Shown here: one piece after another, positions 1,425 through 23,300 of the stretch
How the letters are laid out: every line of letters begins with the position of its first letter
Numbering within the stretch: the stretch's first letter is position 1
Assembly: GCA_947058615.1 (NCBI GenBank)
Contig: CAMSHF010000001.1
Location: 1-64,000, forward strand
Length of the DNA stretch: 64,000 bases
Direction: 5' to 3'
DNA from: an uncultured Rickettsiella sp.
GTDB lineage: Bacteria; Pseudomonadota; Gammaproteobacteria; Diplorickettsiales; Diplorickettsiaceae
The notes under the pieces: generated by a model
The model's input: the letters and a program-made list of their open reading frames with translations, nothing else
What the model was told of the DNA's origin: nothing
The model's database searches: none
Position numbers and translations under genes: made by a program

Positions 1425-1487
1425 TAACTTTATTTAATAAATTGAAATAGCAGAAACTTTAGTAAGATTATGGATTGGACACCTAGC

Positions 1488-2459
1488 CTAACCACTATCA
1501 AAAAAAATCTCTGCTATCTCTACAAATCGTTTCGAGTTAGCACTACGTTTTAACTGTATAATGATTGGAATAATCGATTGAATATAAGTCCGTAATTTTT
1601 CTTCACTCGAATTTGAACCTGCTTGTTGCATCATAAATACGAGTTGGTCAAAACAACCTGCTGGTGTGTCAGCATGCACCGTACTGATGCTTCCTGGATG
1701 ACCACTGTTTGCTGCTCTCAGAAATGACCATGCTTCAGCACCGCGCAATTCAGACAGCAGTATTCTATCGGGTCTTAAACGTAAACATGCTTTGAATAAT
1801 TTTGCTGCGGTAATATTTTTGTCGTCTTCATTAAAAAGTAAATGTACTTTATTTGCCTGGGCTACCTTAACCTCTCGTGTATCTTCTACCGTGATCAAAC
1901 GTTCTGTATCTGGAATAAGTTTTAAACACGCATTGAGAAAGGTTGTCTTACCGGTACCAGTCCCGCCGCTGATAATCATATTTTTTTTAGCACCTATTGC
2001 TAATTTTAGAAATTCGGCAATATTCCGTTGCGCGTGCAACGCTTTTAAAGAAGTTGCTGTTTCTTTAGTCGCATCTTTATTTACAGCAGCAAACGCATCA
2101 AAAACCCCTGTTTCTTCGTAATCTTCTAGACTCATTTCATGGCGTGAGTGGCAACGAATAGAATAAATCGCATTATTTTTTTCACAAGCAGGTGGCATAA
2201 TACATTGTACGCGTTCACCCGTGGGTAAATAGCCTGAAAGTAAAGGGTGCGGAAATGTTTTATGGTTAAATTCTGCAATCAGGTTAGCCAATGCTTCAAG
2301 AAAGCTAAATTCTAAGATTTGTATTTCATGGCAAGTAAACTCCCCATTTTTTTCAACAAATACGAAACCGGGCTGATTAATGCAAACTTCAGTTACACCT
2401 GCTGTCTGTAAGAAAGGTTTTAAGGGTTCTATGTGTTTTTCTAACGCTTTTATGGACAT
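1488..2459 (-). CDS. virB11: VirB11 type IV secretion ATPase, 323 aa
   Basis: VirB11 is the hexameric traffic ATPase at the cytoplasmic base of P-type T4SS. Walker A is GGTGTGKTT (about residues 160-168), the Asp-box region is TVEDTREV, Walker B lies around RILLSELRGAEAW (about 230-242), and the His box is GHPGSISTVHA (about 253-263). Length is normal for the family. It is the last gene of the operon, 15 bases after virB10, and no gene follows on its strand before the convergent receiver gene ending at 1424. All catalytic motifs look intact, so the gene is probably functional. Confidence 0.95.
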   Translation of the reverse strand: MSIKALEKHIEPLKPFLQTAGVTEVCINQPGFVFVEKNGEFTCHEIQILEFSFLEALANLIAEFNHKTFPHPLLSGYLPTGERVQCIMPPACEKNNAIYSIRCHSRHEMSLEDYEETGVFDAFAAVNKDATKETATSLKALHAQRNIAEFLKLAIGAKKNMIISGGTGTGKTTFLNACLKLIPDTERLITVEDTREVKVAQANKVHLLFNEDDKNITAAKLFKACLRLRPDRILLSELRGAEAWSFLRAANSGHPGSISTVHADTPAGCFDQLVFMMQQAGSNSSEEKLRTYIQSIIPIIIQLKRSANSKRFVEIAEIFFDSG

Positions 2460-2474
2460 TTTTTCTGCATAATT

Positions 2475-3542
2475 TTAGAAGATATTGACTTTACCTTTTG
2501 CTTCTTGACGAACCGATCGAAAATCTAAGTCATGCGCTACAAACACTTGAATGGGAGATCCTTGATTTGCCCATAAGGTTGGTGGAATCGTCGTTTGTTG
2601 TTGCAGTGTTTGCTGTGCGGTTTGATTCAAACTATTCGCCATAGCCATACGATAAGCTTGTGCCGCATTATAGGATGCGTTATTAGTAACGCCCATATTA
2701 GATGTACCCGCTCCCAGAATCGAAAGGAGTGTAGCCGTTCCAAATCGTTGCCAAAAATGTCGATCAATAACATCAGCAGCCCTTCCTGCCATACCTAATG
2801 AATCGACACCCGGAGAATCTAAATTCAGACTCAAAGCATCGGGCGTTATTAAACGTGTCCAAACAATAAAAATTCGTGATTGCCCCTCCAATAGGCCACT
2901 TTTGTATTGTCCGATCAAACGACTACCTGGCGATATAAGCACTTGCGAACCATCTTCTGCATAAACCGGCTGATCGATGATTGCCCGTAAGGAACCCAGT
3001 AAATCAGAATTAATCGCTGTTTCTAAAATAGCATGCATGATCTGGCCCTGAGCTATCAACTGATTTAAAGGACCTAATGACTTTGCTTGAATCTGTTTAT
3101 TTGTGTTCGATCCACTAAGCTGCTGTAAAAATTGACTGTTGGGATCAGTAGATAGCGTTTTTTCTGTAGATTTTATGGGTGTCGTGGAATTACTGGATTG
3201 ATTACCGCTTTGTTCAAGCAACATAATAGGCGCAGATAAACGCTGTTGTAATTCTTTTTGTTTAGCTTGTAATAAAGCCAATTGTTGTTCTGATAGTTGT
3301 TTAATTTCTGGTTGCCCTTTTAATGAGGATGATTTTGATGAACCTACCCCGTTGTTGGGTAGTGTATAAGATTCTTCTACTGCAAATTTGGTTTTAGTTT
3401 CATTTTTTTTAAAATGAAACAGAAAATGTATGCCTAATAAAAGAAATACACTTAGCAACAGGATAAGAAGAGCTGGCTTTTTACGGCTGGGTTCAGTAAT
3501 CTCCGGCAATCCTTCAGGTGGGGAAGTTTTTTGTTTTACCAT
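2475..3542 (-). CDS. virB10: VirB10 T4SS core complex protein, 355 aa
   Basis: VirB10 spans both membranes and forms the core complex with VirB7 and VirB9. The protein has a short cytoplasmic N-terminus, one transmembrane helix (about residues 24-43, ALLILLLSVFLLLGIHFLF), then a Gln/Ser-rich linker and the C-terminal beta-barrel domain (about 160-355). Recognisable family stretches include VYAEDGSQVLISPGSRLIGQY and SPGVDSLGMAG, and the end DLDFRSVRQEAKG. It lies between virB9 and virB11 in the usual order. Confidence 0.93.
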   Translation of the reverse strand: MVKQKTSPPEGLPEITEPSRKKPALLILLLSVFLLLGIHFLFHFKKNETKTKFAVEESYTLPNNGVGSSKSSSLKGQPEIKQLSEQQLALLQAKQKELQQRLSAPIMLLEQSGNQSSNSTTPIKSTEKTLSTDPNSQFLQQLSGSNTNKQIQAKSLGPLNQLIAQGQIMHAILETAINSDLLGSLRAIIDQPVYAEDGSQVLISPGSRLIGQYKSGLLEGQSRIFIVWTRLITPDALSLNLDSPGVDSLGMAGRAADVIDRHFWQRFGTATLLSILGAGTSNMGVTNNASYNAAQAYRMAMANSLNQTAQQTLQQQTTIPPTLWANQGSPIQVFVAHDLDFRSVRQEAKGKVNIF

Positions 3543-3557
3543 GACGTTACCCCCACT

Positions 3558-4286
3558 TTATTTTATGTTCTGCCAATCACCGATGAGGGCATCGTTATAC
3601 ACACTCGTCACATCACTTCCGCTTCGTAAAGTAAACTGGGGTGCTGTTGTATTCACAACGACATAGTTTCCTTTCATGTGATAATTCACTAATGTTTCTT
3701 GCCGATTTTTATCCACAATAAAAATGGCAGGCAAGCTATTGTTGAAGCGAAAATAAGTAAACTGACCATTACAATCAAAAGCCTCTCGTGGGGCTAACCG
3801 TTTGTCACCGGTAAAACTATATTTCCAGTTAATTTTGGTCGGATCACAAACGCCAATGGCATTGGTTTGTCCACTTCGATCGTAGCCTGCACTCGGATAG
3901 ATAAACTGTAATTTATATGTCGGTGAAGTCTTTGTATCATTCGAATCTAATTGAAAATTATAGCTATTAACATTGGTCAACACGGTCATATTAGTCTTTG
4001 ATGCGGCCAAAGGCTTGATAAACAGATTATTTTTAACCGATACCGCTTGCCACGCTAAGCTATCGCCAATAGGTATACTTTGTACTTCCTCATCTGCAGC
4101 AAATACTATTTGCGTCTGATAACCATAATGTCCGTGGATAATAACCACGTTATTCGGATCATAGATAACTGTTTTAACATGTCGATCCGCTGCAACCTCC
4201 CGCGGAAGCAAAGCAGCTTGCACCATGCTATGGCCCATGGTAATGATAAGAGTAGACAATAAAAGAAAAATAATTCGTTCACTCAT
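3558..4286 (-). CDS. virB9: VirB9 T4SS outer-membrane core protein, 242 aa
   Basis: VirB9 is a periplasmic/outer-membrane core component that binds VirB7 and VirB10. A Sec signal peptide is visible at the N-terminus (MSERIIFLLLSTLIITMG, cleaved near MVQA). The N-terminal domain has the VKTVIYDPNNVVIIHGHYGYQT segment and the C-terminal half contains NWKYSFTGDKRLAPREAFDCNG, typical of VirB9/CagX proteins. I place the start at 4286 because AGGAG lies just upstream of that ATG; a longer frame to 4301 would place the ribosome site inside the coding sequence. The gene overlaps the end of virB8 by 8 bases. Confidence 0.92.
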   Translation of the reverse strand: MSERIIFLLLSTLIITMGHSMVQAALLPREVAADRHVKTVIYDPNNVVIIHGHYGYQTQIVFAADEEVQSIPIGDSLAWQAVSVKNNLFIKPLAASKTNMTVLTNVNSYNFQLDSNDTKTSPTYKLQFIYPSAGYDRSGQTNAIGVCDPTKINWKYSFTGDKRLAPREAFDCNGQFTYFRFNNSLPAIFIVDKNRQETLVNYHMKGNYVVVNTTAPQFTLRSGSDVTSVYNDALIGDWQNIK

Positions 4287-4971
4287 GACGGTTCTCCTCA
4301 TTTAAATTAACCGGGGTCACTTGGTAATAAATCACCGTAAACCCGAGTGGATTCCTATCTAGTTGGATTTGAGTTGCTTTAACCGATTGATATTTCCATT
4401 TCACAATGGCTTCTTGATTCGCCACTTGTTGTGTATTAGCGGCTTTATCACGCATTCGCTTTTCGAAGCGAATGGTTGCAGTGTTTTCATTTAAAGGTGA
4501 AACGGATAATACGCGAACGCTAATTGCTTTATCTTTTCCATATTTTCGATACGGGGAAGTTGGTACATTACTATCTACTTCTGCATCGTATTGTTTTCGG
4601 ATCATGGCATCGGATTGAGCCCAGGCTAATTGGTAAGGAATTTCTAAGTTATCGCTATCATAGCTTTCTCGATTCATCACGTAATGAATGAGAAAATAAC
4701 GTGTCATTTGCCAGTTAGCCGTTAGCTGCGTAGGTTCTAATTTACCTAGCTTGGTTATTTCACCCGTCGCGTTATTAAACGCATACAGGTAAGGTACTTT
4801 TTGTTTGAGTGGGATCAAACAAGTCAGCATGATTAATGTAAACAATAAACAAAGTAATAATCCTATATTTCCAATCAACGAATAACGTAACCAAATGGCT
4901 TTGCTATGATAAACGTCATAACGCCAATCAGCGGCTGTTTGATAAAATGCTTCTCTCGTATTTGTTTTCAT
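4279..4971 (-). CDS. virB8: VirB8 T4SS inner-membrane protein, 230 aa
   Basis: A short cytoplasmic tail is followed by a transmembrane helix (about residues 29-53, LIGNIGLLLCLLFTLIMLTCLI) and a periplasmic NTF2-like domain, the VirB8 architecture. Conserved stretches are YFLIHYVMNRESYD and the C-terminal NPLGFTVIYYQVTPVNL. The start codon overlaps the stop of virB6 as ATGA, so translation is probably coupled. VirB8 organises assembly of the inner-membrane complex in characterised systems. Confidence 0.93.
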   Translation of the reverse strand: MKTNTREAFYQTAADWRYDVYHSKAIWLRYSLIGNIGLLLCLLFTLIMLTCLIPLKQKVPYLYAFNNATGEITKLGKLEPTQLTANWQMTRYFLIHYVMNRESYDSDNLEIPYQLAWAQSDAMIRKQYDAEVDSNVPTSPYRKYGKDKAISVRVLSVSPLNENTATIRFEKRMRDKAANTQQVANQEAIVKWKYQSVKATQIQLDRNPLGFTVIYYQVTPVNLNEENRHE

Positions 4972-5966
4972 TTTTTTCCTTGCTCTACGGCTGAATTGAC
5001 GGTTGATTTTTTTTGACTTGCCGCTTTATTAGCCATCGCGTTCCCTAACGATTTAATTCCTTTTCCAGCCAAACGCCCTACAGCATTCATGCCCGTTGCT
5101 CTGAGAGCAGAACTCACCATACTGCCAACTTGACCTAAAGCGGCCAGCGTAAAACCCCCACTTAAACTGCTTGCGATCGGTAAACTTTGTTTTAATAAAA
5201 AAGCAGTCACTAACGATAAGCCGCCAAATAATCCCATGGTAAAAAAATCCGGATTACCTTGTGCCGCTTGGCTATTTAGGTCAGGTAAAACCAGCTCCAT
5301 CACCGACAGCATGAGAGATAAAATACTGGCTGTTACGATAGGGATTAATGCAAAATTAAATAATTTTCTCAGCCAACTGACAAACCAACCCCGCGTTGAT
5401 TCCCAAAGAATAAAAGGTAGAAAAATTGGACCGAGTGCTAACGCAATGGCCATCGCGAGCTTTGCGTAGATTAAAAGTCCTAGCGCCGTCAAACAACATA
5501 CAAAAGTAAAAGCAAATATGAAAATACTACAGAAAAAAAGCTTAATTCCTCCACTAAATGATTTTTTTGCAGCTTCCATCCCTACGCTGTAAACATGATT
5601 TAAGGCTTGTGCAATCGTTTCACTGGGAGCCAGTTGATTCGACGCATTAACCATCACTTGGGCGATGTGACCCGGTTCATTCGTAAAAAGGTTATAAACA
5701 AAGAGATAATACAAGGACCAATTTGTAATCAATCCATAAACTATGCATAGCACAATTAAATGCCGGCTAATAGTGCTGAAATCAGCACTCAAGGTATGCA
5801 TGGTAAACCTATAGCCTAGCAACAGAATATAAAGTGTACACAACAGCAAGAGTGTACTGTTATATTGTACTGCTAACTGCAGATAGACCGTTTGGACATA
5901 GTGGCCAATCACACCATCTACCGCGGTTAACGTATCCGTAATAAAACTCTGAACAGAGAGCATCAT
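4968..5966 (-). CDS. virB6: VirB6/TrbL polytopic inner-membrane T4SS protein, 332 aa
   Basis: At least five or six hydrophobic segments are visible (for example residues 38-52, 66-90, 143-180, 205-225, 237-255), with the conserved central region GLLIYAKLAMAIALALGPIFLPF and a Trp-rich turn (ESTRGWFVSWLRKLFNFAL) characteristic of VirB6. The C-terminal 50 residues are polar, Lys- and Ala-rich, and probably cytoplasmic. VirB6 contributes to the translocation channel through the inner membrane. It follows a small lipoprotein gene and precedes virB8. Confidence 0.9.
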   Translation of the reverse strand: MMLSVQSFITDTLTAVDGVIGHYVQTVYLQLAVQYNSTLLLLCTLYILLLGYRFTMHTLSADFSTISRHLIVLCIVYGLITNWSLYYLFVYNLFTNEPGHIAQVMVNASNQLAPSETIAQALNHVYSVGMEAAKKSFSGGIKLFFCSIFIFAFTFVCCLTALGLLIYAKLAMAIALALGPIFLPFILWESTRGWFVSWLRKLFNFALIPIVTASILSLMLSVMELVLPDLNSQAAQGNPDFFTMGLFGGLSLVTAFLLKQSLPIASSLSGGFTLAALGQVGSMVSSALRATGMNAVGRLAGKGIKSLGNAMANKAASQKKSTVNSAVEQGKK

Positions 5967-5976
5967 TTTATTTGAT

Positions 5977-6318
5977 CTATAAGAAAGAAAATGCTTTTAT
6001 TTTTTTCCAGAAATCAGGATCTCTAAAATCGTTTAACGTCGTACTAACAGGAATAAAATGCCTATCCATTAAGCTACGGTAATATTTTTTTGTCCAACAT
6101 TCACATTTATTTTTTAAGGATAAATTTTGTTTAGGATCGATGAAATAGTGAGCGCATTCATTGATAGGCTGACCATCTCCTCTTACAAAGAAGTCCTCGT
6201 CCATCGCTCGGATCATTTTCTCATCCACTAAAGGATTTTTATGACTACATGCTGCTAAAAAAGAAAAACTGGCTATTAAAACACTGAGTAAAATAAATCG
6301 TTTGTAAAGTACTGGCAT
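5977..6318 (-). CDS. T4SS-associated lipoprotein, 113 aa
   Basis: The N-terminus is a lipoprotein signal peptide with lipobox LAAC (FILLSVLIASFSFLAAC, Cys at about residue 24). The mature part has four further Cys, with a CAHYF...NKCECW cluster that could form disulfides, and ends DFWKKIKAFSFL. It lies between the VirB7-like gene and virB6, a place occupied in lvh-type clusters by small accessory proteins. I do not recognise a defined family. An outer-membrane or periplasmic accessory role in the secretion apparatus is inferred from location and lipidation. Confidence 0.7.
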   Translation of the reverse strand: MPVLYKRFILLSVLIASFSFLAACSHKNPLVDEKMIRAMDEDFFVRGDGQPINECAHYFIDPKQNLSLKNKCECWTKKYYRSLMDRHFIPVSTTLNDFRDPDFWKKIKAFSFL

Positions 6319-6330
6319 AGATAGCTCCTT

Positions 6331-6477
6331 TTACCATGAATTAATTTTTGTTTTTGTGCCACAAAAAGTAGCGTTTGCATCACAGGGCGCCTTTAATGGT
6401 GTGTTCGCACAACTAGCTAGGCAGAATGCTGAGAATAAGATGAGTACGCTTAATAAGTGATTAGGTAAATTTTCCAC
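6331..6477 (-). CDS. virB7: VirB7-like small lipoprotein, 48 aa (GTG start)
   Basis: A very short lipoprotein: hydrophobic signal LLSVLILFSAFCLASC with lipobox LASC, then about 26 mature residues with two more Cys. I chose the GTG at 6477 because AAAGGAG lies about 10 bases upstream and the signal peptide then starts at the normal distance; an ATG at 6549 in the same frame would overlap virB5 and add an unlikely charged extension. Size, lipidation and position between virB5 and virB6 fit VirB7, which anchors VirB9 at the outer membrane. The sequence itself is too short for a firm family call. Confidence 0.6.
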   Translation of the reverse strand: MENLPNHLLSVLILFSAFCLASCANTPLKAPCDANATFCGTKTKINSW

Positions 6478-6502
6478 TGTTTTTTTCTCCTTTTTTTCAT
6501 TT

Positions 6503-7198
6503 TTATTTATAGTTTGCATTAAGAAAATGGGCATTCTGTACAGCCTCATTCACTTCTGCTTGCGCATCAATGGCGTGTTGCTGATTGATTAACGCTAGTT
6601 GGCGCAACATTTCCAGCTGAATTAAATTATTCTCCAGTGTAAGACGACTTTCTAAATCAACTGATTGTTTTAAGGTAGCCGTTGTTCCAATCTGTTGGCG
6701 CAATTGATTTGCATAGTTAATCTGATCTTGAATTTTATCGTAGCTCAATTGACTCGCCGCTCTAGCGGCTAAAGCGGTTTTAGCTTTTAAGACATAATAT
6801 TTTTGATCCATTTTATTCGGATTTACGCTGTTATACAGTTCGGTTGCCACAGGGAATTCTTCAGCTAATGCACGCAGCGTTCGTCCTAATTGACTATTAT
6901 TTCCGCGGTTTCCCGCCATACTTAAAACAGAATCCCAACGATCCGTATTTTCACCCCAAGATTGATGATCGGTAAATTGCGAATGTCCCCATTCTGATTG
7001 ACCCGATACGGCATCTTGTATCTGGTGAGTTAATCCTTGTATCGTATTTTGAATACTCGAAATCTGTAATTGATAGCCTTGGATTTGTGCTGCAATATTG
7101 ACTAAATCGCTAATAGGATCGGCATAACTAGGAAAAGATAAAATCATGAATAAACTAAACGCTACAGTTTTGTAAATACAGTGAATTGGGTTTAGCAT
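6503..7198 (-). CDS. virB5: VirB5 T4SS pilus-tip/minor pilin protein, 231 aa
   Basis: A Sec signal peptide (MLNPIHCIYKTVAFSLFMIL...PSYA) is followed by a long alpha-helical, Gln-rich periplasmic domain, the VirB5/TraC pattern, with DPISDLVNIAAQIQGYQLQI near the start of the mature protein. I use the ATG at 7198 because AGAGGA lies a normal distance upstream; the frame continues upstream into virB4 only by chance. The start overlaps the end of virB4 by 7 bases. VirB5 is a minor pilus component involved in target contact. Confidence 0.87.
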   Translation of the reverse strand: MLNPIHCIYKTVAFSLFMILSFPSYADPISDLVNIAAQIQGYQLQISSIQNTIQGLTHQIQDAVSGQSEWGHSQFTDHQSWGENTDRWDSVLSMAGNRGNNSQLGRTLRALAEEFPVATELYNSVNPNKMDQKYYVLKAKTALAARAASQLSYDKIQDQINYANQLRQQIGTTATLKQSVDLESRLTLENNLIQLEMLRQLALINQQHAIDAQAEVNEAVQNAHFLNANYK

Positions 7199-9618
7199 AT
7201 GTTTTTTTTCCTCTTTCTGCGTTGCTGAAAGATAGGCAGCCAAATCGTCGGATCATCCCCTACTTCAGCACGAATAGTATCCAATAAGCTTACCGTTTCT
7301 TGCCGTCCAGAAATGACGGCAATTTCATCGTCTAATCCTTTGAGATTAGCTCTCAGCACAACCGATTCCTTGCCACGACCGACATTCAATAAAAAATAAT
7401 GGCTATCATCCGGTAAGGTTTTTATTAGCTCATATTCGCGCTCTGTTAAACCGAAACCTTCGATATAGATTTTTCGATCGGCCATAGGATTAGGAAAAAA
7501 GATCTTACAGGCTGCTGCTTCATTAATCGGTGCTTGAATGGCTGAAACAGACGTATCCTGTGCCGCTTGCGTGGCTAAACCAAAAAAATTATTTTTCTTG
7601 CGCGGTGTACGCGATAAATCATTGATAATATTTTTGAAATAGTCATCTTGTAACGCTAACCAGCCTTCATCGAGAAAGATCATACCGCGTTGACCTTCGA
7701 GTTGTTGACTGAAGCGATGCAGTAGGTACATTAACGTGGGTGTTTTACAAACTTCATCTTTTATAAGATGGCTTAAATCAAGACCGATAACATCAGTATT
7801 GTATTGCTGTTGTTCAAAGCAATCGCTGACATTATCGAAAACCCAAGCCTGTTCCCGATGACTATGCCAACATTCAAATCGTGCACGCAGTGAACCCGGA
7901 CTATTTTTACCAAAAAATGGCGCGATATGACAAAGTTGTCTTTCAGTCGGGTTTAAGCGATACATCCCTGCGATAGCATCTTCGATGATTTTTATTTCCT
8001 GTTCATCGAGAGGCTTATGTTGAGATTTTAGAAGTTGCTTAAAAAGATAAAGTAAGAAAGTACGGTTTTCTGATGTATCCTTCAGTTGGCAAGGATTAAA
8101 ACCGGTAGACTTCCCTGGTTTTAAAATTTCATAAACACCGCCTAACGCTCTGACTAAGATTTCCAAACCGCGATCTTTATCAAAGATGACGCGTTTCCCG
8201 CCAAATTTCATACTCTGCGCGATAAGAAATCCAACTAACACAGTTTTACCACTGCCGGTAGCACCCACAATTATAAAATTTCCAACATCTTTAGTATGAA
8301 AATTAAAATAAAAAGGGCTGCCAGAAAGTGTTTCTAAAACAGTGACAGCGTTACCCCAGAAATTACCTTGCATTTGGCCTAATGGGTCATTGTGCAAGCT
8401 AGCAAAGGCCGCCATATTTTTTGTTGAAATATCCACTGCTCGAACAATATAAGCAAAATTACCAGGTAATTGCGCCCAGAAAGCACATTCGCAGCCAACA
8501 TCTTCGCGAATACACACGATATCTCGATCAGAAAATAAAGCAATTATTTCGCCTACTTGTTGATTCAACTGTGCCTGACTGTCGGCATAACACATCAAAC
8601 TAAAATGATGTTGGCCATAACCGGCATCACCACTTGCTGCCTCTTCAAATGCTTCATCGATCTGCTCTGTCTGACGATTGGATTCTTCTTTTGTTTGCTG
8701 CATATCTTGCTGTTGATCGCGTAAACGAGTTTTAGCCAAATAACGATCATAAAATCGAAATGATTGTGTGATGGTATATTCCAAGCGTAGTGAATTTAAG
8801 CTATCTAATAGACCCTGATACGTCATCGCTGGATAAGCCTTGATAGACAATGCGGCAGCAAATTGTTTGCTATGATCGCCTGCACGGCATTCAATGGTTC
8901 CTGAACGATGATTAAAAAATAAACGTTTCCTTGCTATATAAATCGACGCATCTTGCGCCGCTAGCGGTACAGCCTGTCGATCGTAATTAATAAGCTGATC
9001 CACAAAAGCTAATGGTTGCGAAAAATAAAGCTCACCCTTTTGATAAACAGTTAATAGTTGCGGTTGATAGTCAGATAAGACTTGTAATACTTTTTGTGTG
9101 GTTGCTTCAAGCGCTTGATAGGTTTTAGCCAGTTGCTGTTGTTGTGCCTCTTTATCGAGTGGATGGCTTAATTTGTTAAACCAATTAAAACCTTGATTGA
9201 TAAGACCCGCTGCCGGTTTAGTAACGATTGCTAAATAAAGTGCATTCTGAAACAGTGAATTCCTTTTGATTCGCTCTCTATATTTTTCATTCAACTGCTG
9301 AGCAAACCCTGATTTAAATTCACCGTCTGGATACTCAGTAGTTTGGCGACGCAGGGTCCAGAAATAAACCGCGTATTCCGAAGAAAAACTTTTTAATAAA
9401 CTATTGCGACGATTCTTATAAGCGTCTAAATCCGCTTCACTTTGAGTGAGTCCATTGATCCCAGCCAGTTGAATAATTTGAATGAGCTTGCCACTTTTAT
9501 CGATTAAGGTATCGTTATTGTAGTGACCTAAGATATTAATATGGCGTGAAGCATCGGCTTCTTTTTTGAGTAAGCGGCTTGGTAGAGAATTTTTTTGTTT
9601 TCTTACTTTAGTAAACAT
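7192..9618 (-). CDS. virB4: VirB4 T4SS ATPase, 808 aa
   Basis: This is the large conserved ATPase of conjugation-type T4SS. The N-terminal CagE/TrbE/VirB4 domain (about residues 180-400) precedes the ATPase domain, with Walker A GATGSGKTVLVGF (about 450-458) and Walker B RGMIFLDEGWLAL (about 645-657), followed by GLATQAAQD and the FGLTEREYELIKTLP stretch near the end. All motifs look intact. It follows virB3 by 3 bases and overlaps virB5. Length is typical. It powers pilus biogenesis and substrate transfer. Confidence 0.96.
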   Translation of the reverse strand: MFTKVRKQKNSLPSRLLKKEADASRHINILGHYNNDTLIDKSGKLIQIIQLAGINGLTQSEADLDAYKNRRNSLLKSFSSEYAVYFWTLRRQTTEYPDGEFKSGFAQQLNEKYRERIKRNSLFQNALYLAIVTKPAAGLINQGFNWFNKLSHPLDKEAQQQQLAKTYQALEATTQKVLQVLSDYQPQLLTVYQKGELYFSQPLAFVDQLINYDRQAVPLAAQDASIYIARKRLFFNHRSGTIECRAGDHSKQFAAALSIKAYPAMTYQGLLDSLNSLRLEYTITQSFRFYDRYLAKTRLRDQQQDMQQTKEESNRQTEQIDEAFEEAASGDAGYGQHHFSLMCYADSQAQLNQQVGEIIALFSDRDIVCIREDVGCECAFWAQLPGNFAYIVRAVDISTKNMAAFASLHNDPLGQMQGNFWGNAVTVLETLSGSPFYFNFHTKDVGNFIIVGATGSGKTVLVGFLIAQSMKFGGKRVIFDKDRGLEILVRALGGVYEILKPGKSTGFNPCQLKDTSENRTFLLYLFKQLLKSQHKPLDEQEIKIIEDAIAGMYRLNPTERQLCHIAPFFGKNSPGSLRARFECWHSHREQAWVFDNVSDCFEQQQYNTDVIGLDLSHLIKDEVCKTPTLMYLLHRFSQQLEGQRGMIFLDEGWLALQDDYFKNIINDLSRTPRKKNNFFGLATQAAQDTSVSAIQAPINEAAACKIFFPNPMADRKIYIEGFGLTEREYELIKTLPDDSHYFLLNVGRGKESVVLRANLKGLDDEIAVISGRQETVSLLDTIRAEVGDDPTIWLPIFQQRRKRKKNIC

Positions 9619-9621
9619 ACA

Positions 9622-9918
9622 TCATCCTGGTTGATAACTGTTCGTTCCACCCCAAAAACCACTGTTCAAAACCGGTGGCGTTTGTGTGAAAAATTTCAAC
9701 CATAAGCGAAAAAACTGCAGATCTTTCGTTGCAAGCCGAAATAAAACCAGATGAAATAGCCCAAATAGAGGAATACCCATTAAAGTATGAAAATCAATAC
9801 AAATCAGAATATTGATGCCTAGATTCGCAAAGAAAAAACGTATCGGAATTCCCATGAACAACGGTGGACGTGTTAAAGCCAATGCGAGCGGATCGACTTC
9901 GAGTTGGTAATCTTGCAT
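9622..9918 (-). CDS. virB3: VirB3 T4SS inner-membrane protein, 98 aa
   Basis: A small protein with a short N-terminal segment (DPLALALTRPPLFMGIP, a hallmark of VirB3) followed by a transmembrane hairpin (about residues 24-60) and a C-terminal polar tail ending in SGFWGGTNSYQPG. It is directly upstream of virB4, as usual; VirB3 works together with VirB4 and in some systems is fused to it. Confidence 0.9.
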   Translation of the reverse strand: MQDYQLEVDPLALALTRPPLFMGIPIRFFFANLGINILICIDFHTLMGIPLFGLFHLVLFRLATKDLQFFRLWLKFFTQTPPVLNSGFWGGTNSYQPG

Positions 9919-9964
9919 ATTAATTCCCTCTAAACTTATTATTTTTCTTCCAATACTTTACTAT

Positions 9965-10291
9965 TTACGAAAAAAGACTACGTATTGCTAAGGCAATAGC
10001 GGGTGCGCCAAACAAAAAAGAAATACCTAACAAAGTATAAAAAAAGTATTTCCATTCCACATAATGACCGGCACACAACAATCCCACCCCCATAATAGCG
10101 AGCGTTGCAATAGATAAACCCGTAGCACCCAACAAAGCATCAATGAAATAGTGAAGACCTTGATTAACTGGGGTATCTCCACCACCCGCCCAGCACAATT
10201 GAGAAGAAAGAAAAAGAAAAGTAATAAAATCAGTGAATTGAAATATTTTTTTATGGCTTCCATATTGCATATTTTTATTCGAATAAAACAT
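9965..10291 (-). CDS. virB2: VirB2 major pilin, 108 aa
   Basis: An N-terminal signal (cleaved after SSQLCWA) precedes a mature pilin of about 70 residues starting GGGDTPVNQ, with two hydrophobic segments (LSIATLAIMGVGLLCAG and FFYTLLGISFLFGAPAIALAI), the VirB2/TrbC layout. An internal ATG (10270) is an alternative start. It lies 46 bases before virB3 and 65 bases after virD4 on the minus strand. The pilin forms the conjugative pilus in related systems. Confidence 0.85.
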   Translation of the reverse strand: MFYSNKNMQYGSHKKIFQFTDFITFLFLSSQLCWAGGGDTPVNQGLHYFIDALLGATGLSIATLAIMGVGLLCAGHYVEWKYFFYTLLGISFLFGAPAIALAIRSLFS

Positions 10292-10356
10292 AATTATTAT
10301 GCTTTTATTTTAACTTATTTTCTTCAAAAAATCACTATAAAAATAGCTGTTTTTTA

Positions 10357-12063
10357 TTATTTTGTAAAAATAATTTTTACTTTTTCTTGCTGAAATTTAT
10401 TTACTTTACTGATGTAAAACGCTTCTCCTGCCTGCAAAGATTGCTTAACTTCATCAGGGTGAATAATAAATGATTTATTACGTTTTACACTGCCCATTCC
10501 CGTTGATGCGTCCTCGCTGATCTGTGCTGTAATATCAAACCCATCTTGCGTCCCTACCCAACTCGCAACGGTTTCTGCACTTTCATGATCATTCAATCGA
10601 TGACAGATCAATGTGTTAACACAATTTAATAGTTGATTTTCAAAATTGATATCCACTCGTTTCAAATCAGCTAAACCTTGTGTACCAAAAATTGCATGAA
10701 TACCTTTACCACGCCCCATATTCACCAAATTCAACACTTGCTCTCCTGCGAACACAGAAAACTCATCAAAAATGGTAAAAATAGGTTGTTTTGAATCTAA
10801 TCGATCAATCACGGCTTTGATATCATTGATAATTAATTTACCTAAAACCTTAGCAAAACTTGGAAAACGCAACGCTGGTAAAGCAAAATAAACCACACTA
10901 CCTGATTTGATTATCTCTGCTAAATTAAAGGTATTGTTTGTTTTTTCAAAAAAAGATCCTAATTCAGAATGTACTAACAAATTTAAATGGGCTTGTAATC
11001 CAGTAATATCTTTAGCATCATAGCGCTGTAAACGCTGTACGCGTGCTTTAAGCGATTCATTAGCAATAGAACGTGTTTTGAGGGCTAGTTCTTCGTATTC
11101 TAAACAATTGACTATGGTTTTTAGATCAAAATCTTCCTTTAGTGCTAGCAGCACTTCAAAGGTAGTTTGCAAATAATCTTCGGCTATTGAGCGATAATAA
11201 TCATTCTCCCAGTGATCTTTTAAACTAATGAGTTTGTCTTTGAGCTCTGTATAGCCGCCATGCGCTAAAGGATCATAATGGTGATACTCAGCACAGTTAA
11301 ATCCATAAAAACTACGCTGATAATGCTGGGATCTTCTTTGAAGCCACGCACTATTTTCTTCCGTGGGTTTACCATCAATAATAATCAATGGATAAGCTTG
11401 CTGTAACGCACGTTGATAAAAACGACGTAGCGTAATGGTTTTACCACCCCCTGTCGTACCTAATACCAATACCATTTGGTTAACTGCTTGATCGGGAATA
11501 ATAACCGCTTGATGAGTAGTAGAAATTCCTAATAAGGTTCCATCACTGTGCTGATTAAATCGCTTATTCCAACGCTGAAATTGAGTTTTCCAATGGCTGC
11601 TATGGGAAGAGAATTCTCTACCACGTTGAATCGCTCTTAACTCCCATTCATGTGTTGAATTAGGAATCCATTCGATCATGCCTAATAAACCGGCGAACAA
11701 TAACGGAAATCCCAGCAAATAATAAAATGTTTGCTGATAGATAAATAGTAATGCCGCTTTTAAACCTTGACTAAAAAAAACTTTCCAAAAAACAAAATGA
11801 CTAATAAAACCAAGATGAATGATTTCAAAAAAAGAGAGTGTTAACTCTGCTTTCACCTCAATCAATAAAACACTAAAAACGGCTAATAGAATACCCATCA
11901 AAAAAATCTGCCAAGCAGGATATCTTAAACCTCGAATAAGAATCAGAAATAGGATTAATCCTAAGAGCCCTAAATACCATTGCCACACAAAACAAATTCC
12001 AATCAATAGGCATTGCATGGCTTCTCGTGGGCGGTGTAGAAAAATATCACCCTGCATTGACAT
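10357..12063 (-). CDS. virD4: VirD4/TraD-type coupling ATPase, 568 aa
   Basis: Coupling proteins bring DNA or protein substrates to the T4SS channel. The N-terminus has several membrane segments (about residues 16-47 and more hydrophobic stretches up to about 130). The ATPase domain has Walker A GTTGGGKTITLRRF (about 200-213), Walker B PIFTIFDEFSVFAGE (about 430-444), then NMGRGKGIHAIFGTQGLADL, typical of the VirD4/TraG/TraD family. It overlaps the upstream winged-helix gene by 17 bases and precedes virB2. Its presence shows the system is built to export substrates; no relaxase is seen in this window. Confidence 0.92.
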   Translation of the reverse strand: MSMQGDIFLHRPREAMQCLLIGICFVWQWYLGLLGLILFLILIRGLRYPAWQIFLMGILLAVFSVLLIEVKAELTLSFFEIIHLGFISHFVFWKVFFSQGLKAALLFIYQQTFYYLLGFPLLFAGLLGMIEWIPNSTHEWELRAIQRGREFSSHSSHWKTQFQRWNKRFNQHSDGTLLGISTTHQAVIIPDQAVNQMVLVLGTTGGGKTITLRRFYQRALQQAYPLIIIDGKPTEENSAWLQRRSQHYQRSFYGFNCAEYHHYDPLAHGGYTELKDKLISLKDHWENDYYRSIAEDYLQTTFEVLLALKEDFDLKTIVNCLEYEELALKTRSIANESLKARVQRLQRYDAKDITGLQAHLNLLVHSELGSFFEKTNNTFNLAEIIKSGSVVYFALPALRFPSFAKVLGKLIINDIKAVIDRLDSKQPIFTIFDEFSVFAGEQVLNLVNMGRGKGIHAIFGTQGLADLKRVDINFENQLLNCVNTLICHRLNDHESAETVASWVGTQDGFDITAQISEDASTGMGSVKRNKSFIIHPDEVKQSLQAGEAFYISKVNKFQQEKVKIIFTK

Positions 12064-12691
12064 GCAAATCTGCTGGTTGATTTTCTAGAAATTCATTTAA
12101 CGAATGGATTTTGACAAATGGCATTGCCTTAGCAGCCTCCTGCAATCGCGGCAACATACTTTGCCTACAAAAATACCAAACCTCTTGTAATGAAAATTGT
12201 GCCGCATACGTTTTTAAAATGGCCTCTAAGCGTTGCTTACTCTTGCAAGAAAGCTCTACTTCGATGGCAACTTGTTTACCATCAGGAAAAACCAATATCC
12301 CATCGGGTAGATGCCCCTGTTGGCCGACCCCCAATTTATACTTATCATGTTTTAACTTCCGTTCACTGATCCATGTAGCACACGGGTAAAAAATTCTTAA
12401 TTTTAAATAAAGATTTAATAAAGCGAGATCATGTTGGTAGTTAGCTAACGGTACTCGATGTAAGGGAGGTAATGAAGTAAAACGTGAGCCTGCTTGCGTT
12501 AAACGAAATAGACCATGACGACGATAAAAAATCCGTTCATGTTGCAATAGATTATGACGTATTAATTTATTAACTATTTGGTAGTTACGCGGTTTCCGTA
12601 AAGAAAAACGTTCGTTGATTTGAGGTATTTCACAGAAACCAAATTCATTAATGAATTGTAAAATGGCTACATCACGCGATGTTAATTTCAC
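12047..12691 (-). CDS. Winged-helix, replication-relaxation-like protein, 214 aa (first gene of T4SS operon)
   Basis: The N-terminal 75 residues look like a winged helix (LTSRDVAILQFINEFGFC, then NYQIVNKLIRHNLLQHERIF). The second half has GHLPDGILVFPDGKQVAIEVELSCKSKQR, a PD-(D/E)xK-like core also seen in the replication-relaxation (Replic_Relax/MobC-like) family. The start is GTG. It overlaps virD4 and reads away from the candidate origin at 12790-13002. A role in processing or binding the transfer origin is therefore attractive but inferred. Family assignment is from memory of the motif pattern. Confidence 0.65.
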   Translation of the reverse strand: MKLTSRDVAILQFINEFGFCEIPQINERFSLRKPRNYQIVNKLIRHNLLQHERIFYRRHGLFRLTQAGSRFTSLPPLHRVPLANYQHDLALLNLYLKLRIFYPCATWISERKLKHDKYKLGVGQQGHLPDGILVFPDGKQVAIEVELSCKSKQRLEAILKTYAAQFSLQEVWYFCRQSMLPRLQEAAKAMPFVKIHSLNEFLENQPADLHVNAG

Positions 12692-12791
12692 AAAGGGTCA
12701 TCCGATTATTTTTATCTTATAAAAAAGTGGACCCCATTTTATGAAAAGAATCAAGTGGTTTAGAAACAAAAAAATTTAATCTAAGTCAGAA

Positions 12792-12840
12792 GTTATCCAC
12801 ACGAGGGGATTCCTCAAAAAATCCAACGATTGTGGATAAC
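12792..12840. promoter_or_regulatory. Two inverted DnaA-box-like sequences
   Basis: GTTATCCACA (12792-12801) and its exact reverse complement TGTGGATAAC (12831-12840) contain the DnaA-box consensus TTATCCACA in opposite orientations, 29 bases apart. Between them is a small GAGG...CCTC dyad. They lie about 100 bases upstream of the T4SS operon and just before a large nested inverted repeat. This could be part of an element-borne replication origin or a DnaA-responsive operator (inference). Confidence 0.55.
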
Positions 12841-12908
12841 TTCTCTCCTTCCTTTAGTTCTATTATTATTATTATTTTCACTTTTCATTTTTAATTTCTC
12901 TTCGCTTT

Positions 12909-13002
12909 CCCGCCCAATAGCCATGACCTCAGTTTTACAAGACTCGAAGAGACGATGGAAAAGTGAGGTCATGGCTAGCTTTCACAGCGTGAAATGGGCG
13001 GG
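12909..13002. repeat. Nested inverted repeat with three stems; candidate oriT or ssDNA origin
   Basis: Outer stem: CCCGCCCA (12909-12916) pairs with TGGGCGGG (12995-13002). Middle stem: TAGCCATGACCTCA (12918-12931) pairs perfectly with TGAGGTCATGGCTA (12964-12977) and continues after one mismatch with TTTT/AAAA. Third stem: TTTCAC (12980-12985) pairs with GTGAAA (12989-12994) around AGC, filling the gap between the other two right arms. The loop of the middle stem has a small CTC-GAA-GAG hairpin. Together this is a three-way junction of about 94 bases. It is G+C-richer than its surroundings and stands upstream of the T4SS operon. An open frame of 62 codons through it is fortuitous. Confidence 0.75.
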
Positions 13003-13136
13003 CAGCCTTATTAAATAAAGCTAAAAGGCATTTACAGTCTACTCTAATCGAGTTATAGAACTTGGTATAGATATCCACCAAAAGTAAACTTTGTTTATAA
13101 TCTTACTCTGATGAGTTAGATCCGATTGAAAAAGTT

Positions 13137-13676
13137 ATGATTATCTTAAAAACAAAGCGTTTAATACTTAGAACTTGGAAAGAACAAGATCTTGATCCCA
13201 TGTCAGCAATTAATCAAGATCCTTTAGTCTGTGAATTTCTGCCTAAAATTGGAGATCGAGTTGCAACAAAAAACTTAATTCAACTTTTTAATAATCACTA
13301 TGAAAAGTATGGTTTTACTGCATATGCTATGGAATTAAGATCAAATGGTAAATTTATAGGTTTTGTAGGGTTGTTGATACCTTCATTTGAGGCTCATTTC
13401 ACGCCTGCTGTTGAAATTGCTTGGCGATTAGATTCTCAACTCTGGGGGAAGGGTTATGCTACCGAGGCTGCAAAAGCCGTAGTCGATTTTGCTTTTACTA
13501 TACTGAAGTTAGAAGAAGTTGTTTCATTTACCGTAGAAAATAATATAAGATCCCGTCGGGTAATGGAAAAGATCGGTATGCAGCATGATCCACACGACGA
13601 CTTTGATCACCCAAAACTATCAAAAAACAGTCCTCTTTGTCGACATGTTTTATATCGACTAAGCCGGAGCGAGTAA
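13137..13676 (+). CDS. GNAT-family N-acetyltransferase (RimJ/RimL-like), 179 aa
   Basis: A single acetyltransferase domain of the Acetyltransf_3 type. The start KTKRLILRTWKEQDL is the family's usual N-terminus, and the acetyl-CoA binding motif A is WGKGYATEAAKAVVDFAF (about residues 103-120), followed by FTVENNIRSRRVMEKIGM, the conserved motif B region. It may acetylate a small molecule or a protein N-terminus; the substrate cannot be read from sequence. It lies alone between the candidate transfer origin and a broken CatB-type gene, in a region with signs of repeated insertion and loss. Confidence 0.88.
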   Translation: MIILKTKRLILRTWKEQDLDPMSAINQDPLVCEFLPKIGDRVATKNLIQLFNNHYEKYGFTAYAMELRSNGKFIGFVGLLIPSFEAHFTPAVEIAWRLDSQLWGKGYATEAAKAVVDFAFTILKLEEVVSFTVENNIRSRRVMEKIGMQHDPHDDFDHPKLSKNSPLCRHVLYRLSRSE

Positions 13677-13695
13677 ATAACAAGAAAAAGAGAAT

Positions 13696-14180
13696 ATGAT
13701 TAATCCAAATATTAAATTCCCCCCTGGCTAATATAGCTCGGCTGTGCTTTTTAAAAACATTGTTAAGAACCCAAACATTATCGTAGGAGACTATACCTAC
13801 TACGATGATCCTGAAAATGTTGAGAATTTTAACAAAAACGTGTTGTATCACTTTGACTTCATTGGGGATAAGCTGATTCTCGGCAAATTCTGTCAAATGG
13901 CCACCAATGTACGCTCATTATGAATGGGGCTAATCATGCAACCAATGGTTTTTCGAGTTTCCCGTTTCGTGCGTTTGGTAGTGAATGGAAAGATGTGCCG
14001 CTTACACCAGATTATAAAGGTGATACTATCATTGGAAATGACGTTTGGATTGGCTATGATGCTTTGATCATGCCTGGAGTAAACGTGGGTGATGGAACCA
14101 TAATTGCATCGCGAGCAGTTGTAACCAAAGATATAGAACCTTATTCAATTGTTGGTGGTAATCCTGCTCAATTGATTCGC
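13696..14180 (+). pseudogene. Broken CatB/Vat-type xenobiotic O-acetyltransferase
   Basis: Two frames together give the hexapeptide-repeat acetyltransferase of the CatB type. The first frame (from ATG 13696) reads INPNIKFPPG, stop TAA (13729-13731), then NIVKNPNIIVGDYTYYDDPE and [21 protein letters not shown]. After about 13912 the reading continues one frame over as [38 protein letters not shown] and [14 protein letters not shown], the conserved left-handed beta-helix. Homology stops near 14180, where unrelated sequence begins. One nonsense codon, one frameshift and a missing C-terminus mean the gene is dead. Intact relatives acetylate chloramphenicol or streptogramins. Confidence 0.85.
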
Positions 14181-17338: not shown

Positions 17339-20300
17339 ATGTCCAACTTAACTCACAATAAAAATAAAATATACTCCATCTTATTAGACATATGGACAAA
17401 ATCTTTAAAGACAATAGATATAGAATCACAGGATACATTTATTTCACTAGGAGGAAATTCACTTACTGCTATCCAGATTATTCATAAAATCAATGAGTCA
17501 TTAGAAATCAGCTTGCCTTTAGATGCTATCTTTAAACATAATACTGTCGAAAAATTAACTACTTTTATTGCAAAACACGCCATTCAGAAATATAACCTAG
17601 AAACGATAGAAAAAAAAATTTGGCAGGATTGTGGTACTCCGCTTACACAATCTCAACAACAAATATATTTTCTAGAACAATATAATGATAACGCATCCTC
17701 TGCATACCTTGTTTCTTTTGCATTTGAAATAAATGGAAAGTTAGATAGGCTTGTCTTAGAAAAATCTATTAACACTATCCTACAAAGACACGATATTTTT
17801 GGTTCGTTTTTTCGAGAGTACACTGAGGGGATTAAGCAATTTATTCAAAAAGATATCAATATAAGGGTACCGATAGAAGAAAATATAAATATAGAAGATT
17901 TACAAAAACAAATTCTTTCCGAAACAAGAAAAAAAATCAACCTATCCAATCCCCATTTAAAAAGGATTAAATTATTAAAACTATCTGAACAACGTTACTT
18001 TTTAGTCATAACAGTACATCATATTATTACCGATGCCTGGTCAATATCTTTGTTCAAGAAAGAATTAGAAGAATGCTATAACGCTTTCTCAAATAATGAA
18101 TATCCAAAATTAACAGTCTTAAAAATGGGCTATGCGGATTTTATTTCCCAACAAATTTCTTATTTAAAAAGTCATAAAATATTCGATGATTCAAAGTATT
18201 GGCAATCAAACTTAGTTAATTTTACAGAAATCACTTTCCCAACTGATTTTAAAAGACCAAAAACAAAGAAGTTTATAGGTAAGCGACTAACATTTAGTCT
18301 AAATAAAACTATTGTAAAAAAAATAAACCGTTTCAATATTCAAAATAATACAACTTCTTTCATGTTAATGGCAACAGTATTGAGTATTTTATTAAGTCGA
18401 TACAACCAACAAGAAGATGTCGTTATTGGATTCCCTATTTCAGGTCGAAATGCTTCGGAATTTAGTCATACTATGGGACTATTCCTGAATACCTTAGTTT
18501 TAAGAAGTAATTTACAAGAAAAAGATACTTTTGAGTCGTTTTTGTTAAATGTCAAACAAAATTTACTGGATGCCTATGCTCATCAAAATTTTCCATTTTC
18601 CCAATTAGTAAAACAATTAAATGTTTCTCGATCCCAAAATAAAAATCCAATATTTCAGATAATGCTTGTGTGGCAAGATAGCCTAGATAGTAATAATTTA
18701 GTCTTTCCCGAAATGACGATGACTCCACATTTTTTGGATAATAGAACCTCAAAGTTTGATATGACTTTCGAATTTATTCCTTCAACATTAGGAATTGATT
18801 GTATTATTGAATATGATACTCAGCTCTACAAAAAAAGCACAATAAAGAGATTGTCTTTGCATTTTTTGAATTTATTATTAAGTGGCATAGAAAACCCTAA
18901 TAAGAATCTACTTGCTTTAGAATTTATTACACTTCAAGAGAAAAAACGGTTTTTAAAAAGTCCAATATTATCAAAATTAGACATAGTTGAGCCTGATACT
19001 ATTCATGAGTTGTTCGAAAAACAAGCTGAACGGTTTCCCGATAAAATGGCTATATGTTGCGACGAGCTAGCTCTTACTTATAGCGAATTAGATAAAAAAT
19101 CTAATCAATTAGCAAGATATATTAAATATCACTATAAAGAATGTTTTACGTCACCCAATATTTTAATTGGAATTTGCTTAGATAGAAGCTTAGAATTAGT
19201 CATTAGCATGCTCGCCATATTAAAAGTGGGTGCTGCTTATGTCCCATTGGATCCCGAATGGCCTAAAAAGAGATTAGATACTGTTTTAAGCGATGCTAAT
19301 TGCTCAATAGTACTCACAGATAATATAAACAAAGATAAATTCTCCTCCATTAAATTAGATACGCAGAAATTATTAATACTTGATGAAGAACTACATGAAC
19401 TTGCTGAGGTTTCTACATTAAAAATAACAAAGGAGAGTAATAAATGTCAGGATTTAATTTACGTAATTTACACATCCGGCACAACGGGGGTTCCCAAAGG
19501 GGTAAGCCAGACACATTATAATGTAATTCGTTTATTACAGAGAGGACATGAACTATTTGGATTTACTTTTGAGGATGTCTGGACATTATTTCATTCATAT
19601 ACATTTGATTTTTCTGTATGGGAAATATGGGGGGCTTTGGGGTCGGGTGGCTGTCTTGTAATCCCCACCTATCAAGAAACTCGCGATCCTGTCTTATTTT
19701 ATCACCTTGTTTTGCAACATAAGGTAACAATTTTAAATCAAACCCCCTCAGCCTTTCAGCTTTTTATGCAAGCTGAAGAAACCAATACTAGGAAAATAAG
19801 TGCTCTAAAATATATCATATTTGGCGGAGAAGCATTAGATGTTACCTTGCTTTCTCCTTGGTGGAAACGCTACTCAGAAAAGCACCCCATTCTTGTTAAT
19901 ATGTATGGTATTACCGAAACAACGGTTCACACAACCTATAAATTTTTAACAAAAAAAGATCTAAATCGAAGAGAATTTTCTAATATAGGCATGCCATTAG
20001 CTGATATCAAAGCTTATGTAGTCGATTCGCACTGTAAGCTTGTTCCAGTGGGCGTGCCCGGTGAATTATTACTAAGTGGATTTGGTTTGTCGCCAGGCTA
20101 CCTAAATCGTCCTCAGCTTAATGCCGAAAAATTTATAAAAAATAAATTTAATGAAACGCTACTATTAAGTCATAGTTTGGCAGAATCGGCTTTTTCGCGT
20201 TTATATAAAACCGGTGATTTAGTGCGGCGACTTGCGGATGGAAGCTTAGAATACTTAGGCAGAATAGATAAGCAACTGAAAGTTAAAGGATTTAGAATAG

Positions 20301-23300
20301 AAGCTGGAGAAATTGAAGCCGCATTAAATATGCATAAAACAATTCGGCAATGTTTAGTTAGTACCTTGAAGCAAAATAATTTAACCTTTTTAGTTGCCTA
20401 CTATATTGCTGATAAACGAATCACCAAGAAGACTGATAACAAATACTTAAGCATTGAATTAAGAACCTATTTATCAAGCTTATTACCTGCTTATGCAATT
20501 CCCAAGTTTTTTATCAAACTTGATTCTTTCCCTTTAACCCCCAATATGAAGATCGACTATGCAGCACTGCCATTGCCATCGCCTTCCTCTGTAGATAGTG
20601 ATAGCCCCACAACATTAATTACAAAAAAGTCACGCCATACCGAGCCTGAAGCTATTTTAGCTGGTCTATGGAAATCTACACTTCAAGTAGATACTATTCA
20701 TCTAGATGATAATTTTTTCAGTCTTGGCGGCGATTCCATATCGAGTATCCGGATTGTAACTGAGGCAAGAAAAAAAGGTTTTGGTTTTTCAGTTAGCGAT
20801 TTGTTTAAATCCCCCACTATTCGTAAATTATCAAAGCATTATAAAAATCAAACTCAAGCAAAAAAAATCAAATTAAAAACTTTTGATATAACCAATAAAA
20901 AACAAATTATTTCTGAAAAATTTCACATCGCTATTGAAAATATTGAAGATATCTATCCACTCTCTGCCTTGCAAACTGGAATGGTATATCATTCCAGTTA
21001 TTCTACTAAATCAGCCATTTATTTAGATATATTTTGTTACAAAATTATGGGGAGCTATAATAAATCTTGCTTACTGCAAGCAATCCAGTGTCTCATAAAT
21101 CTTCATCCGATACTAAGGACTTCCTATTTACTGAATGAATTTGATGAACCTATACAGGTTGTCCACGCTACAATAAAAATCCCTTTTTGTGAACAGCACT
21201 TAGCTAATATGTCCAGTGTTGAACAAGAATGTAAATTAGAATCATGGATACTAGAGGAGAAAACAAAATCTTTTCGATTTGAAGATGCTCCTTTATTTAG
21301 AATAACTGCACATTTAATCCATGAAAAGCAATTTGTGTTGAGCATTTCTTTTCATCACTCTATATTGGATGGTTGGAGTTTGGCTAGTTTTATCACTGAA
21401 TTACTTGCAAACTATTCACAACAATTAAGTTTAAAATTTAGAACTGAACCGACTGCCAAAACCAAGAGTGTTAAGCATACCGAACAGCTAGGGATGTCAG
21501 CAAACCAACTAGATAACAAAGTCGATTGGAATTTTAAAGAATTTGTCCGTTTAGAAAAGGAAACTCTCGCATCTGAAGTACATAGGATATTCTGGAAAAA
21601 TGAGCTTCGTAATTTTGAAATTACTGAAATAGCCTATATCGAAAATACTATTTTACCAAATAATAATGATTTTTGCTCGCATTGTATTCAGGTTAATCGT
21701 CAAGTTACCGCCAAATTAATAGTGCTAGCAAAATCTCTCAATATCTCTCTTGATGAGATTATTTTAACTGCACATATGAAGTTATTATCCATATATTCTA
21801 GTCAAGAGGATGTGCTATCAGGAGTTGTATTTAATGGTAGACCATCACTTGATAATATTGATACAACTTTAGGATTATTTTTAAATACTTTGCCATTTAG
21901 AATAAATGTCTCTAATTGCACTTGGAAAGAATTAATACATCTAGTTTCTGAAAAAAAGAAACACCTTTATCCATATAGACGTTATCCATTAATGAAAATC
22001 ATGCAGGATATTAATACGGATCCTTTATTTAATATCATTTTTTACTTTACTCACTTTCATATTTATAAAAAAATTAAAGCAAACTCTCATTTTAAAATAA
22101 TTGATCAAAAACATTATGAAAGAACCAATTTTCCTCTTGCCATTAACTGCACATTAGATCCAGTTAATAAAAAATTGGAAATAGTATTCAACTATGAGAC
22201 TCAACACTACAACTCTCAACAAATAATACATTTAGCTGATAGCTATATTCGGTTATTAGAGTCCATAGTAACGGATGTAGATGGCCAACATACTGCTTTT
22301 GCTTTATTAACTTCCGAACAAAAGCGCCATCTATTAATTGACTGGAATCAAACTGAAAAGGTTTTCCCACAAAATAAGCTTGTTCATGAGCTGATTGAAG
22401 ACGTTACTGAAAAATTTCCAAAAAGAATAGCAATAATTTTTGAAACTACTTCAATTTCTTACTATGAGCTCAATAGGAAATCAAACCAATTAGCAAATTA
22501 TCTAAATAAGCAAAAAACTTATTCAAATAAATTAGTCGGCTTATGTATAGATCGTAGTTTAGAAGCTATCATAGCAATGTTAGCCGTATGGAAAGCTGGA
22601 AAAGCTTATATCCCTATTGATCCTTCATACCCTGAAGAAAGAATTAAATTTATTCTAAATGACTCTCAATGTCATATTTTAATTACTCGAAAAAATCTTA
22701 TTCCAGGTTTAGCATTTTCTAATGAAATTGATTTAATTTACTTGGATGACTTGTATTCGATTACCAAATCGATTTCAGCGGAGAATTCAATTAATACCAC
22801 CTCCGATAAAGCTAATTTAGCTTATGTTATTTATACATCTGGTTCCACGGGGATGCCAAAAGGTGTCATGGTAGAACACCTATCACTGGTTAATCTTCTA
22901 TGGGATATGCAGAAAAAAATAGATTTTACTGAAAATGATAATTTTCTTTCATTAACGTCTTTTTCGTTTGATATTTCAATATTAGAAATTTTTCTTCCCT
23001 TGATTACCGGGGGTTGCTGTGTGCTCGCTGATCAATCTGGTAGTAAAGACCCAGAATGGATTAAAGATACTCTAAAAAATTGGCCTATTACGGTAGTCCA
23101 AGCAACTGCCTCTAAGTGGGCTTTACTTTTCGAACATGGTTTAACAGAGTCAAAATGCAAAATCAAAGCACTATGTGGAGGGGAAACCTTACCCACTTAT
23201 ATAGCATCCCAACTTATTGAATTCTCTGAATCAGCTTGGAATGTTTATGGACCAACAGAAACTACGATTTGGTCTACAATCTATAAATTAACTAAAGAAA

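Follow-up and report, generated by a model that had tools for sequence, protein, structure and literature searches.

We identified, in a genome of an uncultured Rickettsiella, a forked hairpin that is very probably the origin of transfer of a mobile element in an arthropod-associated bacterium. An origin of transfer (oriT) is recognised by a relaxase and nicked on one strand. The window, meaning the whole stretch of DNA analysed here, covers the opening 64 kb of contig C1, which has 336,708 bases and belongs to a genome of 1.37 Mb on 14 contigs. The hairpin lies at 12909-13002. Judged from sequence comparison, it is highly likely that this hairpin is the oriT core of an integrative and conjugative element (ICE), with the protein encoded at 12047-12691 as its probable MOBC-type (PD-(D/E)XK) relaxase. 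Four observations carry this reading, namely the structure of the hairpin, the covariation of its stems, its linkage to mobC, and a signature of fixed spacing that it shares with other MOBC-type loci.

Folded both as RNA and as single-stranded DNA (ssDNA), the hairpin forms a three-way junction built from helices of 8, 14 and 6 bp. The outer stem of 8 bp pairs 12909-12916 with 12995-13002, the main stem is a perfect helix of 14 bp (12918-12931 with 12964-12977), and a small hairpin of 6 bp fills the remaining space (12980-12985 with 12989-12994), leaving 1 and 2 bases unpaired at the junction. The main stem is prolonged into its own loop by a short inner helix (TTTT/AAAA plus 2 bp). The initial annotation had described three nested stems filling one another's gaps in a fold far beyond chance, and both folds bear this out: the RNA fold reaches -49.7 kcal/mol (z = -9.6) and the ssDNA fold -34.2 kcal/mol (z = -10.8), with none of 200 shuffles equally stable in either case. 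A scan of the window in steps of 50 nt, each piece being 94 nt long, gave the highest stability for the piece that begins at 12901. Moreover, the 64 kb contain three sites with a perfect stem of at least 14 bp and a loop no longer than 60 nt, compared with 0.05 in mononucleotide shuffles; these are the hairpin itself, a palindrome at 12788-12844, and an A+T-rich stem at 54568.

Several familiar structures were considered for this fold and set aside. A terminator had been judged a poor fit from the outset, and that reading was dropped because no terminator-like site is present in the hairpin region. The tRNA-like reading was dropped as no tRNA was detected, and that of an integron attC site because the attC core motifs were absent by eye. 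The hairpin has no match in Rfam at the gathering score.

To the left of the hairpin, the minus strand carries the mobC-like gene (12047-12691), a gene for a VirD4/TraD-type coupling protein (10357-12063), and the T4SS genes virB11, 10, 9, 8, 6, 5, 4 and 2 (1488-10291). This is the gene order that had been proposed, a conjugation operon headed by a gene for a relaxation-like protein. The hairpin lies 218 bp upstream of this first gene, which encodes a divergent MobC-family protein, and is a non-coding structured site beside putative relaxase and coupling-protein genes. Specifically, almost the whole of the 214-aa product aligns with NCBIfam NF041423 ('MobC family replication-relaxation protein'; E = 1.1e-14). 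Its score of 54.3 bits falls far short of the curated MobC cut-off of 200, and the Pfam model Replic_Relax has no match in the protein, which together mark it as a divergent relative. An alignment of about 13-14 relatives has invariant columns at H87, E110, R111, D130, E144, E146 and K150, corresponding to the H, ER, PD, ExE and K positions, so that the protein holds the residues of a PD-(D/E)XK nuclease. The family profile of MobC also matches winged-helix chains at its N-terminus (E about 1e-4). These are the features reported for MOBC relaxases, which combine kinship to PD-(D/E)XK nucleases with an N-terminal winged helix (PMC12857230). Several MobC relatives sit on plasmids typed as MOBC by MOB-suite, and none was found in viral contigs. 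An AlphaFold model of MobC built from two sequences had a pLDDT of 38.5 and was discarded. Because it matches the MobC family, the protein called relaxation-like is probably the relaxase itself, of MOBC type, for this element.

Within this bacterial family, hairpin and mobC occur together. Across 16 of its genomes, which are kin and hence not independent trials, the hairpin is present in all eight that have mobC (in one, G002, identified by folding) and in none of the eight that lack it. Apart from a few orphan remnants, it is conserved only with its cognate putative relaxase gene. The genome under study has two copies, both beside mobC, one of these mobC genes being truncated. In genus g3, other DNA separates hairpin and mobC, in G011 by some 1 to 8 kb, and yet the hairpin is kept; a segment of 135 bp surrounding it shows 85-88% identity, against 72-75% for the T4SS region. 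The DNA between hairpin and mobC in G011 includes a reading frame of 2454 aa on the other strand with many ankyrin-like repeats (L070:9157-16521). The initial annotation had named multiple scattered copies of the REP/MITE kind, or a lack of conservation beside homologous T4SS loci, as observations that would speak against a transfer site. Neither is found, since both copies in this genome lie at mobC and the structure recurs beside a mobC of 39% identity and in other phyla. We therefore regard a dispersed repeat of REP/MITE type as largely refuted and give it almost no credence. There is indeed more than one copy per genome, with six in G011 and some orphans among them, yet the copies track mobC save for a few remnants, and family genomes without mobC have none. 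A copy beside tRNA-Pro in G006, with no trace of mobC, has decayed and lost the fold. One orphan copy in G011 is intact and adjoins a PKS cluster related to that of the window (L071:7636-14951; 48-64% aa identity).

The stems themselves have changed in a manner that preserves pairing. Among 11 aligned copies, nine pairs have changed on both sides, compared with an average of 2.6 in shuffles, and none of 500 shuffles reaches nine; one of the 34 pairs in the bracket string is a column off, which counts against the structure. Sliding the partners by 1-3 columns lowers pairing from 94% to 33-50%. The congener G002, whose mobC is 39% identical, has the same fork just upstream of mobC with mostly different stems. 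The fork recurs with unchanged orientation on the plasmid pCCELLA01 of Carboxydocella (Bacillota), where mobC lies 200 to 300 bp downstream of it. Unchanged across the forks of the window, G002 and pCCELLA01 is the core TGACCTC/GAGGTCA, while most other stem bases have changed; structure is kept more than sequence. The hairpin has no DNA similarity in phages and plasmids, which leaves structure and signature as the basis of the wider link. In viral contigs, at least 120 stretches fit a GACCTCG stem pattern, and these were judged likely to be chance.

As an alternative, the hairpin could act as RNA, whether in a leader at the 5' end of the mobC-virD4-T4SS transcript (minus strand) or as a small RNA on the plus strand that controls transfer. 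The RNA fold is stable, and in the window the hairpin lies upstream of mobC in the direction of the operon. The one-sided changes in three family copies and G002 all give G-U pairs on the plus strand, although these four wobble changes are too few to decide. A precedent exists in SGI1, the mobilisation of which is reported to need a self-encoded small RNA (PMC9299015). A leader, however, accords poorly with G011, where the gap between hairpin and mobC extends to 7.7 kb and once holds the opposite-strand frame of 2454 aa; nor does an RNA agree with the missing Rfam match, the absence of a terminator, or the one weak promoter-like site, which is below the number expected by chance. We consider an RNA role unlikely and favour a DNA site for transfer.

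This preference for a transfer site is strengthened by the comparison with other MOBC-type loci. We assembled 25 regions upstream of MOBC-type genes, from relatives of Rickettsiella, Carboxydocella, Bacillus, Peribacillus, Paenibacillus, Sporomusa, actinobacteria, Staphylococcus, Liquorilactobacillus, pAM373 and others, and defined a signature on the mobC strand, consisting of a perfect stem of at least 9 bp, [GC]AC[CT] within its 5' arm, and a spacer of exactly 12 nt from there to C[GA]T. It is present in 21 of the 25 loci, spanning three phyla, compared with an average of 0.03 loci and never more than one in shuffles; these statistics are optimistic, since the hairpins of the first loci were seen before the others were fetched and the rule was written with the whole panel in view rather than blind. 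With two further loci (n = 27), a spacer of 12 occurs in 22, and the other spacers from 6 to 19 occur in 0 to 8. Of the two additions, Paenarthrobacter passes and is a close relative of the Arthrobacter locus already in the panel, and pGIAK1 passes only if TGT replaces CGT. The strict signature is missing from the loci of CloDF13, of the Gram-negative MobC plasmids of A. lwoffii and V. algicola, and of S. nepalensis, and in a CloDF13-like plasmid of Klebsiella and a Streptomyces locus it is on the opposite strand. A search for PF13814 in 398 Pseudomonadota genomes gave matches in three, the loci of which lack the signature. Within the window, the sole match is the hairpin at 12909-13002, with GACC-N12-CGT on the minus strand (12952-12970) and CGT at 12952-12954 as the predicted nick region. 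Likewise, the sole match in the 27.8 kb of pAM373 is a hairpin of 25 bp about 700 bp upstream of the relaxase gene. Since bacteria that differ widely have a related hairpin signature next to a nicking enzyme of this type, an unmapped cutting site becomes predictable. We hypothesize that MOBC-type relaxases share one structural oriT code across phyla, in which a hairpin carries [GC]AC[CT] in the 5' arm and, after exactly 12 nt, presents a nick triplet C[GA]T in the loop, in this lineage within a three-way junction; we put the chances of this generalization at about even.

The initial annotation had proposed a nicking or replication-initiation site. The comparison supports the former as an oriT, while a single-strand origin receives no special support. 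A replication origin of the excised element, be it a single-strand origin or an oriV, would find an argument in the adjacent palindrome (12788-12844), which has an inner hairpin and 14-bp arms with two inverted copies of a perfect DnaA-box-like word, TTATCCACA. However, the palindrome occurs in G014 and G015 at unrelated places with neither hairpin nor mobC, the hairpin is also found without the palindrome, and in other phyla the hairpin accompanies mobC and no replication gene. An origin of replication is therefore highly improbable to us. In the family, the palindrome is conserved near mobC and also present at unrelated sites (L073:6424 and L074 at about 6300). Situated on the mobC side about 110-165 bp from the predicted nick, it may be a site for an accessory protein.

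The region from 50 to 13070 forms a conserved ICE block that is 92-94% identical, with the same ends, in G001, G005 and G007. G001 is Candidatus Aquirickettsiella gammari, of the same genus as the source of the window, which places that source in the Rickettsiella/Aquirickettsiella group. In G005 and G007, the block runs on into an integrase gene adjoining tRNA-Thr or tRNA-Phe. An element without integrase was considered for the window and dropped, as contig C8 of this genome ends in the corresponding integrase half, beside tRNA-Lys. C8 and C1 terminate in what resemble opposite ends of a single insertion sequence, flanked by TAAATTTAG on each side, and a copy of this 9-bp duplication is at 50-58 of the window. 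This suggests an ICE that is split between contigs, with its larger part in the window, apparently broken by the insertion sequence between C8 (end, L250) and C1 (window 1-58). An integrase by a tRNA gene, a full T4SS and a putative relaxase together make the element a candidate ICE. A truncated second element, on contig C7 of the same genome, retains its hairpin intact along with 101 residues of mobC and an integrase that adjoins tRNA-Phe; this remnant (L014:6574-10816) is possibly mobilisable in trans by the transfer system of the window. The integrase end of the ICE in G007 (L079:11095-13601) carries a DNA methyltransferase and unnamed proteins resembling phage early genes, which suggests a mosaic of phage and ICE.

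At the other end of the block, the conserved flank beyond the hairpin (13003-13070) is where conservation stops and variable cargo starts. Measured against the hairpin, an acetyltransferase cargo segment (window 13136-14179; L014:9769-10817) has opposite orientations in the window and in C7/G007, and further along the window are an NRPS (17339-24916) and a PKS/FAD-monooxygenase cluster (25153-39583), together covering 17339-39583. The end of conserved sequence near 13070, followed by different DNA in each genome, together with the inversion, raises the idea that cargo is joined at the hairpin or directly beside it, by a recombinase or by the relaxase itself, and some relaxases, including TraX of pAD1, are reported to recombine (PMC5714925). 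This is quite improbable as the main role of the hairpin, given that the ICE has its tyrosine integrase beside the tRNA at the other end (assigned by Pfam for the C7 copy), that no repeat is common to both ends, and that cargo joining is not needed to account for linkage with MOBC genes on plasmids of other phyla. Because the cargo changes right after 13070, recombination could be a side activity of the oriT.

For extrusion, binding, strand choice, the exact nick and the transfer of the hairpin DNA, we infer a scheme as follows. In the excised, supercoiled circle, the palindromic region would open as a cruciform or a forked single strand. MobC may then bind through its winged helix and read the GACC part of the main stem; as the palindromic stem presents GACC from either side, the asymmetric loop would supply strand and position. 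MobC would cut one strand, the minus strand, close to the CGT that the loop presents after a further 12 nt (about 12952-12954), and the coupling protein would pass the cut strand to the VirB channel, with resealing in the recipient. If the shared code holds, restriction-type relaxases would have a mode of recognition from which nic sites can be predicted, both in the family and in hairpin-only islands. With a hairpin code of fixed spacing, nicking sites could be foreseen in three phyla and hitchhiker islands that carry an oriT only would be revealed; it would also pose the question of how an enzyme with a restriction-type fold cleaves a single strand within the loop of a hairpin. In the Rickettsiella group, the finding points to elements with a potential for self-transmission close to an NRPS/PKS gene cluster. 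Origins of the MOBC type are a known kind, and the forked form with fixed spacing is apparently undescribed; a literature search, to which most subscription journals were not open, found no work uniting oriT, relaxase and a three-way junction.

MOBC relaxases are non-canonical and related to restriction enzymes, and their experimentally studied prototype is TraX of pAD1 (PMC12857230). With pAD1 and pAM373 of Enterococcus faecalis (TraX and Orf8), the element shares the relaxase type, PD-(D/E)XK plus winged helix (PMC12857230), and the hairpin of pAM373, a candidate origin, has the same GACC-N12-CGT signature. Unlike the oriT of either plasmid, the hairpin of the window is a three-way junction. 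In pAD1, TraX binds five direct repeats located 70-120 bp from nic (PMC12857230); no such set of five is present in 12690-13080, and the palindrome at 12788-12844 has a similar spacing but is not a set of direct repeats. CloDF13-type regions (MobB/MobC) have the MobC family in common with the element, but their gene order is virD4-mobC instead of mobC-virD4. CloDF13 itself lacks a strict match, and its Klebsiella relative has the signature in a 13-bp hairpin on the strand opposite to the arrangement in the window. Like ICEs at tRNA genes, the element combines a tyrosine integrase at a tRNA 3' end, VirB/VirD4 genes and variable cargo, and related elements in kin genomes sit at tRNA-Lys, tRNA-Thr and tRNA-Phe; it differs from those ICEs in its small MOBC-type relaxase and putative forked oriT. 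The MOBC plasmid pCCELLA01 of Carboxydocella thermautotrophica, although from another phylum and with mostly changed stem bases outside the core, matches the window in its fork, its order, its orientation before mobC-virD4, and its TGACCTC core.
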